6,529 bases of DNA, taken from positions 1 through 6,529 of the forward strand of contig JAUWOV010000088.1 of assembly GCA_030611945.1 (NCBI GenBank), in the 5' to 3' direction. This document shows, piece after piece, positions 175 to 6,288 of this stretch. A model generated the notes under the pieces. That model saw nothing but the letters and a program-made list of their open reading frames with translations, had not been told where the DNA came from and did not search any database. Each line of letters starts with the position of its first letter. Position 1 is the first letter of the stretch. The DNA is from a bacterium (lineage in GTDB: Bacteria > JAHJDO01). The translations under genes were made by a program, and so were the position numbers.

Positions 175-795
175 CTATTGAACTGTCTTTTTTATTTCTT
201 CCTCAAAAAACTCTTTCACTCTTTCCCATTTTACATCTTTTAACATCCTTGGCATTTCGTCAGGCTCAGCATCATTAAAAAATACTAAACTTTTTTGGAT
301 ATGTATATGATTAGAAGCTAATCTTTTATATTTTTTATCGTAAAAATCCAACAGATCAGTTAATTGATAACCGGATTTGCATATAAAATATAAGTCAATG
401 AAATCTCTTTTCGCACCTCGAGCGGCTACAGCATCTATTTTCATTGCGGCAATATCACGAATATCAGCTATACTTACCGACAAATATTTTAACGCAGGAA
501 AAATCAATGGGTATTTATAAACAAAAAGACTAAAATTTATCCCTTCAAATTTACCCAAAACGGTTCCTTTGCTTGTCTGTTCTTCATCAAATGAACCTAA
601 TTTTGATAGTGCGGCAGAAATTTCTTTGGGCATAAACTCTTTAGTTGTGAAAAAATCAAAATCCACAGAAATACGGTGACCTAATTGAAGAGCTGCTGCT
701 GTGCCGCCTGCTAGATAAGCCTCTTGTAAAATACCTGAACGACCTAATAAGGCCAGAACGTCCTTGGCTCCTTTGACGAATGTTTCTTCAAACAT
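175..795 (-). CDS. AbiEii/AbiGii-type nucleotidyltransferase, probable toxin
   Basis: This 206-residue protein has the signature of the AbiEii nucleotidyltransferase toxins (PF08843): a GG motif and paired acidic residues in YLAGGTAAALQLGH and RISVDFDFF (residues 27-49; G30-G31, D45 and D47), then the helix with K119 and the conserved KRDFIDLYFI segment (residues 129-138). Characterised relatives are DNA-polymerase-beta-fold enzymes that transfer nucleotides to RNA and stop growth; that activity is inferred here. The strand expected to carry a third metal-binding Asp reads INFSLFVYKY and has none that I can place, which seems common in this short subfamily. The ATG at 795 has AAGGA upstream. 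It overlaps the preceding 104-codon gene by 52 bases, indicating translational coupling in an antitoxin-toxin pair. The product looks cytoplasmic, with no signal peptide or membrane segment. No terminator was recognised after the stop at 175. Confidence 0.82.
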   Translation of the reverse strand: MFEETFVKGAKDVLALLGRSGILQEAYLAGGTAAALQLGHRISVDFDFFTTKEFMPKEISAALSKLGSFDEEQTSKGTVLGKFEGINFSLFVYKYPLIFPALKYLSVSIADIRDIAAMKIDAVAARGAKRDFIDLYFICKSGYQLTDLLDFYDKKYKRLASNHIHIQKSLVFFNDAEPDEMPRMLKDVKWERVKEFFEEEIKKTVQ

Positions 796-1058
796 AACAC
801 ATCCTTTCTTGGTATATCCAAAACCAAAGCCCAGAAATTAGCAGTTTTTAAAGAATATCCACGAAAATTAGATAACGCATCTTTTATATCTCTTTTTTTA
901 AAATTCTTCCACATCCAATCAACAGCGTCTTCATCCCCATATTCCAGAAGGCGCTTTAGAACATATATCTTACGATTTTTAAGATCAATCTTATCAAAAT
1001 CAATATCCCAAAAATATTTTTTTAGAAATACAGGCTTGTTTTTTGCTGCGATTTCCAT
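744..1058 (-). CDS. DUF6922-like small protein, probable antitoxin partner of the AbiEii-type protein
   Basis: A 104-residue basic protein. Its pattern of KPVFLKKYFWDIDF near the N-terminus, a central LEYGDEDAVDWM segment, and SLKTANFWALVL followed by a short tail ending FWPY matches my memory of DUF6922 proteins, which commonly sit directly before AbiEii-type genes. The family name is recollection and was not searched. The ATG at 1058 has AGGA nine bases upstream. The last 17 codons overlap the start of the nucleotidyltransferase gene in another frame, so the two are almost certainly translated together. The tail shares the W-x-Y-like ending I associate with the family, so I take the long overlap as real and not as a frameshift artefact. 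A role as antitoxin or as a DNA- or toxin-binding partner is inferred from position alone. Confidence 0.75.
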   Translation of the reverse strand: MEIAAKNKPVFLKKYFWDIDFDKIDLKNRKIYVLKRLLEYGDEDAVDWMWKNFKKRDIKDALSNFRGYSLKTANFWALVLDIPRKDVLCLKKHSSKEPRTFWPY

Positions 1059-4694: not shown

Positions 4695-5843
4695 TTATTG
4701 TGTTTTTTCTACAACTCTTAATTTTGCGCTTCTGGAGCGGACATTTCTATCAATCTCTTCCTCTGTTGGTGTCAGAGGTTTTTTAGTGATAATTTTCGCT
4801 TGCTCATTCATTTTAAATTCCCTGAACTTGTTTTTTGCAATCCTGTCTTCTAATGAATGAAATGACATTATGACCATCCTGCCTTCTTTTTTGAGAAGAC
4901 TAAAGCCATGTGTAATTGCTTGTGTTAAATTCTTCAATTCATTATTTACAGCTATTCTTAAGGCCTGGAATACCCTTGTGCCAGGGTGAATTCTATATCT
5001 TTTCAGAGGGATAGCCTTCTTTATTATGGTTACCAACTCACCTGTTGTTTGTATGAGTTTCTTTTTCCTTTCTGTTATAATCCTGGATGCAATTCTCTTA
5101 GAATATCGTTCTTCTCCATATTTAAAAAAAATTTCAACTAATTCATCGTAGGATAAATTATTAATCAAACTCTGAGCTGTCAGATTAGAAGAGCGATCCA
5201 TTCTCATATCCAATGGTCCGTCTTTATTAAAACTAAATCCTCTTTCAGGATTATCTATTTGATACGAAGATATCCCAACATCAAAGATAATCCCATCTAC
5301 TGCCTTGATATTTAACCGGCTGCAAATATCTGTAATATTTAAAAAATTATCGTGAACAAGTTTGAACGAGCCGGCAAACTTTCCTAATCTTCTCTCGGTT
5401 ATCTCCAGAACTGATTTATCGCAGTCTATACCAATCAGAAAACCTTTGGGATGCACAACATTCAGTATTGCTTCGGAATGTCCTCCCTCGCCAATTGTGC
5501 AATCAATATATATGCCTTCGGGTTTAACACACAGCAGGGCTAATATTTCATTAAGTAAAACAGGTATATGCCTGGGGGTTGCAACAGAATAAGATTGACT
5601 ATTTGGAGTTTCATGTTTGAGGTCAGTGCAAGGCGCGACGAGGGCGGTGTGCCCTCTGTGGCACATAACCGAGGAGCAACGCTGCAATGGCCTCAAGATG
5701 GAACTCCCCAAAGGGCCAGGTCGCTTTTGGGCTGCGACTGCGTCACTCATCCCTTTCGTAGCACTTTGGCTACGCGTCACTCTTCGTTTCTTGTCTCGCT
5801 CCAAAATCGCCTCTGGCAAATGGTTAATCTTATTCTGTTGCAA
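4695..5843 (-). CDS. rsmH: 16S rRNA (cytosine1402-N4)-methyltransferase RsmH (MraW), with an element-derived N-terminus
   Basis: RsmH is the SAM-dependent enzyme that N4-methylates C1402 in the ribosomal P site. The core is complete from HIPVLLNEIL (residue 92, near 5570): SAM-binding DCTIGEGGHSEAIL (114-127), DGIIFDVGISSYQID (183-197), RGFSF and DGPLDMRMD (201-216), HPGTRVFQALRIAVN (286-300), SFHSLEDRI (327-335), and the KPLTPTEEEIDRN...RSRSAKLRV tail (355-377). The core alone is about 291 residues, near normal RsmH length. Residues 1 to about 90 come from the inverted-repeat insertion and resemble no RsmH. The usual ATG just before HIPVLL is missing, and no ATG, GTG or TTG lies in frame within the last 30 codons before it. 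Possible starts are TTG 5843, GTG 5780, ATG 5750 and ATG 5666, none with a well-spaced ribosome binding site. The true start is uncertain. Confidence 0.93.
   Translation of the reverse strand: MQQNKINHLPEAILERDKKRRVTRSQSATKGMSDAVAAQKRPGPLGSSILRPLQRCSSVMCHRGHTALVAPCTDLKHETPNSQSYSVATPRHIPVLLNEILALLCVKPEGIYIDCTIGEGGHSEAILNVVHPKGFLIGIDCDKSVLEITERRLGKFAGSFKLVHDNFLNITDICSRLNIKAVDGIIFDVGISSYQIDNPERGFSFNKDGPLDMRMDRSSNLTAQSLINNLSYDELVEIFFKYGEERYSKRIASRIITERKKKLIQTTGELVTIIKKAIPLKRYRIHPGTRVFQALRIAVNNELKNLTQAITHGFSLLKKEGRMVIMSFHSLEDRIAKNKFREFKMNEQAKIITKKPLTPTEEEIDRNVRSRSAKLRVVEKTQ
5575..5596 (+). repeat. Terminal inverted repeat, rsmH side
   Basis: Twenty-two bases identical to the reverse complement of 5826-5847. 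It reads outward-in as GGGGTTGCAACAG followed by AATAAGATT. An extra G at 5574 lies just outside. Confidence 0.85.
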
Positions 5844-5847
5844 CCCC
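5826..5847 (-). repeat. Terminal inverted repeat, mraZ side
   Basis: This is the partner of the repeat at 5575-5596. On the minus strand it starts with GGGG at 5847-5844, directly followed by TTG, the upstream-most possible start of the rsmH reading frame. Confidence 0.85.
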
Positions 5848-5852
5848 TTATA

Positions 5853-6025
5853 TCAAATTTCCAATTGTTCCGCAATTTCATTGACAGATTTTTCTGTGTT
5901 TTTTGAATAAGATATCCACTTTTCTCTGCTCCAGATCTCTATGCGGCTCATAACTCCGATGACAATAACGTCCTTTTCTATTTGAGCATAATTCTTCAAA
6001 TACAAAGGGATTGATATCCTTCCCC
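5853..6025 (-). pseudogene. mraZ: Displaced 3' part of mraZ in another frame
   Basis: From the GGGG run at 6025-6022 the minus strand, read one base later than the mraZ frame, gives a typical MraZ C-terminal half: [17 protein letters not shown], then [18 protein letters not shown] and ...NEIAEQLEI, ending at TGA 5855-5853. This is the second SpoVT-AbrB-like domain. With one G removed, DKQGR reforms the second DxxxR motif and the full protein would be 144 residues, normal for MraZ. The segment is clearly protein-coding by its family match but is out of frame with its start. Confidence 0.85.
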
Positions 6026-6288
6026 TGTTTGTCTATTGCGCATTCGGAAGCGCCGGAAAATAAATGTCTGGTGTAAGCGCGAGCATCCTTGCCTGTAAGA
6101 GGCAAAGCTTTTGTCTTATTTTCAAACAATTTCCATTCATTCTTTGTAAATAAGAATAAACAGTTATCCAGTCCTTTTGTAATAATAAACCTTTCGACGA
6201 AAGTTTCCTTTATTTTTCCCCTAAGACGCATGGGAACAATAAGGCGGTTTTTCTCATCCAGTGTATGCACAAATTCACCGTAAAACAT
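5878..6288 (-). CDS. mraZ: MraZ, transcriptional regulator of the dcw cluster, apparently frameshifted
   Basis: MraZ is a nucleoid-associated DNA-binding protein with two SpoVT-AbrB-like domains that forms rings and binds repeats before its own promoter. The first 89 residues are typical: [19 protein letters not shown] with the first DxxxR motif (D11-R15), then the linker up to [13 protein letters not shown] (78-89). After that the frame drifts into unrelated residues and stops at 136. A single extra G in the GGGG run at 6025-6022 explains the break. The ATG at 6288 has GGGGA eight to nine bases upstream, inside the last GTGG repeat. If the base is real, the product lacks the second domain and probably cannot form the normal ring. 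A sequencing or assembly error is equally possible. Programmed +1 shifting is less likely. It is the first gene of the cluster. Confidence 0.9.

Follow-up and report, generated by a model that had tools for sequence, protein, structure and literature searches.

It was between the mraZ and rsmH genes of a bacterial division cluster where we found a 273-bp palindromic DNA element that is probably a member of an undescribed superfamily of short palindromic, MITE-like, non-autonomous mobile DNA elements of about 273 bp, also occurring in a single-lobe form of 163–165 bp. The window, that is, the whole stretch of DNA analyzed, is one entire 6529-bp contig (C112) of genome G000 (1.66 Mb, 119 contigs), and profile matches identified mraZ, rsmH, an ftsL-like gene, ftsI/PBP, and murE on its minus strand. 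A preliminary description had suggested a non-autonomous mobile or dispersed structured element located where rsmH should begin. The location is confirmed by the full-length Pfam Methyltransf_5 match of the window RsmH (residues 3–308 of 309, with the catalytic domain intact), and in favor of mobility there are numerous full-length copies in other genomes, two empty sites, and a 3-bp flank repeat. The features of the element and of its junction with rsmH are as follows:

5575–5847, no strand assigned: the complete 273-bp element, a near-palindrome
5575–5605, plus strand: left terminal inverted-repeat arm, its outer 22 bp perfect
5817–5847, minus strand: right terminal inverted-repeat arm
5601–5707, plus strand: lobe 1, a long imperfect hairpin with a full match to covariance model R1
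5635–5642, plus strand: GCGACGAG, conserved in alignments, 5' side of the tandem-GA internal loop of lobe 1 (putative non-canonical pairing)
5647–5666, plus strand: apical hairpin of lobe 1, varying in sequence with its pairing kept (helix 5 of the covariation analysis)
5669–5677, plus strand: CCGAGGAGC, conserved in alignments, 3' side of the same tandem-GA loop (putative non-canonical pairing)
5715–5821, minus strand: lobe 2, homologous to lobe 1 and inverted, with a full R1 match on the minus strand
5757–5774, plus strand: apical hairpin of lobe 2, CGTAGC-ACTTTG-GCTACG
5848–5856, minus strand: native rsmH start TTG-ATA, now directly before a TAA stop (in congeners, TTG-ATA-TTC leads into RsmH)
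4695–5843, minus strand: open frame in which an element-encoded N-terminal extension of up to 91 codons is fused in frame to rsmH

The ends and composition of the element agree with what had been read from the window at first. Its arms are perfect complements over 22 bp (5575–5596 with 5826–5847) and 94% complementary over 31 bp (5575–5605 with 5817–5847), a terminal repeat for which simple arithmetic gives a chance expectation of about 1e-6 per 6.5 kb, and both ends, 5575 and 5847, are exact, given that the full-length copies of other genomes share both terminal bases. The interior is indeed GC-rich (56.9%, and 52.7% for the element as a whole, vs. 36.3% in the remaining window), there is no transposase ORF in the element, and two stem-loops with stems and loops of about six bases are present at about 5647–5666 and 5757–5774. 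Folded as DNA, the element reaches −65.7 kcal/mol (z = −7.6; none of 200 shuffles was as good), and the minus strand folded as RNA gives a z of −6.5.

The anatomy behind this folding is common to the family: the arms of the terminal stem enclose two homologous lobes in inverted orientation, and because of this arrangement the element is about 58–70% identical to its own reverse complement. In lobes across the family, the apical stem varies in sequence while keeping its pairing, and the flanking internal loops, GCAAGGcGCGACGA ... GAGGAGCAACGC, are nearly invariant; in the alignments, the facing C-GA-C-GA and G-GA-G-GA of the internal loops of lobe 1 suggest tandem sheared G·A pairs. Covariance folding of the copies, the check proposed at the outset, gave strong covariation over 24 lobes, with two-sided change in 23 of 31 pairs vs. 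12.0 in shuffles, 119 covarying cells vs. 38.5, and a score of 0.462 vs. 0.202 that none of 500 shuffles equaled, while structures slid along the alignment scored at most 0.11. The terminal arms pair at 93.5% of positions within a copy vs. 69% between copies. The idea that organized internal hairpins set the element apart from a simple MITE is thus supported by the inverted homologous lobes, by their covariation, and by the freely varying ends. The accompanying suggestion that it may act as RNA did not fare as well: mismatches of the terminal stem are as often G·T (17) as A·C (18), which gives no sign of selection on an RNA strand and means either that pairing is maintained in the DNA itself or that a process acting on DNA, such as palindrome correction, restores it. 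In lobe 1, G·T mismatches (33) outnumber A·C (14), an excess that is biased by the choice of folding and is therefore given no weight here.

Other copies had been named as a check on mobility: G000 carries a single copy, which counts against it, but the copies in other genomes overrule this. G069 (NPL-UPA2 Unc8), G091, Omnitrophota MAGs, Theseobacter exili (Auribacterota), and CSMAG genomes all contain full-length copies, with lengths of 267–274 bp and about 70–88% identity; among 32 distinct full-length copies, all within that length range, 11 are exactly 273 bp. There are two copies in G069 (88% identical), one in Theseobacter exili, up to about 12 in the Omnitrophota MAGs, and 13 full-length or nearly full-length copies in G091 besides five single-lobe copies of 163–165 bp. 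The carriers are metagenome-assembled, fragmented genomes, and multi-copy elements are often missing from such assemblies. The copies lie mostly in intergenic regions, in many cases with genes of one direction on both sides. No match to the element was found in plasmid and phage collections, in viral contigs by exact pattern, or among the families held in Rfam up to E = 1, and our search of the literature on MITEs and palindromic repeats in Omnitrophota or candidate phyla found no description of it; this is, therefore, a cross-phylum family of small mobile elements absent from Rfam and from the papers searched, whose members can be found with the covariance model. Two copies of G097 depart from the common plan, one whose lobe 2 has an apical hairpin longer by about 65 bases (L055/L104), and a minimal one of about 51 bp (L094:7738–7789) with the terminal arms almost back to back and both lobes deleted.

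At E ≤ 1e-4, the lobe covariance model matched 25 of 385 genomes (about 6%), many of the matches being two inverted lobes about 113 bp apart. The terminal sequences of these elements are of unrelated types, namely GGGG (the class of the window), TA-GTGTC/GTGTAC, TA-CTGAG, and TA-CTACCGAGAGC. The terminal repeat of G254 was counted 78 times in that genome (control, 0), and its complete copies measure 272–274 bp for the most part, in spite of a different stem and diverged lobes. Given that this geometry is kept with another stem, and that the end types are unrelated, we regard the lobes and the overall geometry, and not the end sequence, as the conserved identity of the element. We tentatively suggest, as a possibility well short of probable, a class of mobile DNA defined by its internal fold (two inverted lobes with tandem G·A loops) and not by its terminal sequence. 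If the enzyme recognized the fold, lineages could retain the lobes and a length near 273 bp even as they exchanged stems of the GGGG, GTGTC, CTGAG, and CTACCGAG types, and non-autonomous mobility would then be marked by structure rather than by end sequence. With the known bacterial MITEs (Correia/NEMIS, ERIC, RUP, and Nezha), the element shares its short length, terminal inverted repeats, small flanking duplication, lack of a transposase, strong folding, and possible in-frame fusion with genes. Unlike them, its conserved part consists of two covarying lobes common to elements with different terminal repeats, it spans phyla, and no parent insertion sequence was found in the carriers searched.

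The flanks of the copies provide the evidence on how the element would move. An exact 3-bp repeat flanks 12 of 37 GGGG-class copies vs. 5.3 expected, a count reached in none of 2000 shuffles; the flank pairs include TAA/TAA seven times, TTA/TTA four times, and no mixed pair, one copy is flanked by TTG/TTG, and similarity outside the TAA/TTA pairs is borderline (P = 0.053). This repeat fits staggered cutting at T-W-A. However, with TTA the reverse complement of TAA in a near-palindromic element, a fixed TTA flank on either strand could mimic a duplication, and the window copy, flanked by CTG/TTA, has no intact repeat, both points counting against our preferred reading. The expected target duplication is therefore seen at the family level, with that reservation, and not at the window copy, whose flanks are compatible with a TCA duplication that may since have lost bases. 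In one copy of G098 (L056/L071), the flanking direct repeat is not 3 but 7 bp long (ATACTTA).

We infer MITE-like movement at the DNA level, in which a transposase provided in trans would make staggered cuts at a TWA-type target. In recognition, this enzyme would depend less on any fixed terminal sequence than on the stem and/or the folded lobes, given that the lobes are conserved while the terminal repeats differ between lineages and yet stay self-complementary. A trans-acting staggered-cut transposase is the most likely agent, with an HUH route as its main rival. A terminal-repeat search for an autonomous partner in the fragmented assemblies of G091, G097, G098, G103, and G254 returned remnants and non-coding copies only, and the lack of an autonomous element with the same ends in G091, G097, G103, or G254 speaks against the preferred reading. 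IS5-type insertion sequences duplicate TNA and in this resemble the element, but no member with matching ends was found among the PF01609 members, the only ones compared. The DDE_Tnp_1 family (PF01609) occurs in 8 of 15 carriers and is absent from G069, G254, and G118, and GGGG-type ends were seen in none of the PF01609 transposases examined.

DruA/DUF4338 was considered as the enzyme and rejected, since PF14236 is found in only 4 of 31 genomes and in no lobe-bounded unit. The lead had come from a lobe about 1.2 kb from druA in G061, where druA turned out to be part of an IS66-like element, bounded by ends of its own (GTGTCCTTCCGG), that had inserted next to the remnant of a lobe; in this element (L187, G061:C491), adjoining the remnant, druA lies between tnpB and the transposase gene. 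The druA of G097 is located among large ORFs with no lobe, and that of G004 beside a DDE transposase, again with no lobes. In G237 (L182–L185), a multi-copy druA insertion sequence with the end AGTGTCTGTCCCAATACTG accounts for breaks in at least seven contigs, all of them at one and the same base.

The HUH route, to which we give a minor though appreciable probability, regards the element as REP/BIME-like, with a tyrosine HUH transposase (RAYT or TIRYT, PF01797) moving it in single-stranded form. The lobes would then be the hairpins that the enzyme recognizes, and the TTA at the flanks would be its fixed target instead of a duplication. The structured, covarying lobes suit single-strand recognition, and in a near-palindrome TTA/TTA and TAA/TAA become one rule read on either strand, although the TTG/TTG-flanked copy does not follow it. 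Y1_Tnp (PF01797) is present in 14 of 15 carriers vs. 56 of 90 non-carriers (Fisher P about 0.013, in a comparison that ignores phylogeny), and many of these Y1 ORFs are 220–350 aa long, the size of RAYTs; however, G226 carries the element and has no Y1 gene. In 20 regions around Y1 genes, moreover, none of these genes was flanked by lobes or by the terminal repeats of the element, and the only lobes nearby were 6 kb off in a single region. One Y1 gene of G091 has its own palindromes nearby, GGGGACAGTCCCC, which weakens the case further; these fit the GGGGWSAS repeats of TIRYT genes (PMC3733652). In comparison with REP/BIME repeats and their RAYT/TIRYT genes, the element is likewise a palindromic, non-coding repeat, in a group where inverted dimers are frequent, and Y1 genes are common in its carriers, but no GTAG foot was seen in it, it is much larger, and it has no lobes beside the Y1 genes examined.

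Coming back to the element as MITE-like mobile DNA, its minus-strand frame is open in many copies, and three genomes contain in-frame fusions with similar peptides: with rsmH in the window, with the intein of an RtcB RNA ligase gene in G105 (L064), and with a class-II glutamine amidotransferase in G103 (L072). The case of L064 is a mobile element within a mobile element. These fusions favor a protein-coding palindromic element kept for a useful peptide, like the Rickettsia palindromic elements (RPEs), a disfavored and very unlikely explanation, given that copies are mostly intergenic, lengths not divisible by three are common, and there is no codon-position signal (variation by position of 54/50/55, 43/42/52, 23/22/31, and 39/34/33). 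With no third-position excess, the open frame appears to be an incidental consequence of the structured sequence. RPEs are also palindromic, dispersed, and found in frame inside protein genes (PMC10969869, PMC2229807), but by their description they are set apart by their length (105–150 bp vs. 273 bp) and their different bacteria, and the element has two lobes and no sign of peptide selection. It provides a further system of in-frame palindromes within proteins, outside Rickettsiales. In G091, solo terminal-repeat remnants lie at gene starts (L108, L118, L119, and L129), where the end GGGGTTGAGAAATAATAATATG supplies an ATG; these are apparently used as translation starts, of genes that we take by eye, from their translated starts, to be leuS- and dapF-like, among others.

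At the window locus, the insertion itself can be seen against the empty site. In the congeners G002 and G003, whose RsmH proteins are 89% and 80% identical to that of the window, the mraZ–rsmH junction has no element and reads ATTTGATATTC-AAGCATATACC or ATTTGATATTC-AGACACATACC, whereas the window reads ATTTGATATAA-[element]-CAGGCATATACC; nucleotide and lobe-model searches detected no copy in any congener genome. The element is 88% identical to the NPL-UPA2 copies while the host RsmH proteins are only 49% identical, and this shows movement across lineages and excludes vertical descent at the mraZ–rsmH locus, the alternative named beforehand as fatal to mobility and excluded also by the empty congener sites. 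In the congeners, TTG is the sole in-frame start codon at the beginning of rsmH. Since the native TTG-ATA is now stopped by TAA and the frame of the element is open for 91 codons, RsmH can start only inside the element. Candidate starts would be TTG 5843, GTG 5780, ATG 5750, ATG 5666, or others, and the resulting N-terminal extension would be of roughly 32–91 residues. The locus offers a clear example of a conserved gene in the division cluster that takes its translation start from a mobile element.

A vertically inherited structured RNA or regulatory leader of the mraZ–rsmH operon would suit the position in the dcw operon and the strong folding and covariation, but is hardly credible, given that the empty congener site excludes this reading here, copies elsewhere lie beside unrelated genes, and the terminal stem has no G·U bias, in addition to the negative Rfam search. 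No more credible is an assembly chimera or contaminating contig, in spite of the contig being only 6.5 kb long and coming from a MAG with 3% contamination, because the flanking genes match those of the two congeners, which have mraZ next to rsmH, and the element ends coincide exactly with those of the copies elsewhere. With regard to the other genes of the window, mraZ (5878–6288, minus strand) is frameshifted relative to both congeners in a G run at about 6030–6045, either by a real mutation or by an assembly error, so that its C-terminal part is out of frame. Downstream of murE, there is an AbiEii-like nucleotidyltransferase of the type IV toxin-antitoxin family (175–1058, minus strand), together with a DUF6922 gene.
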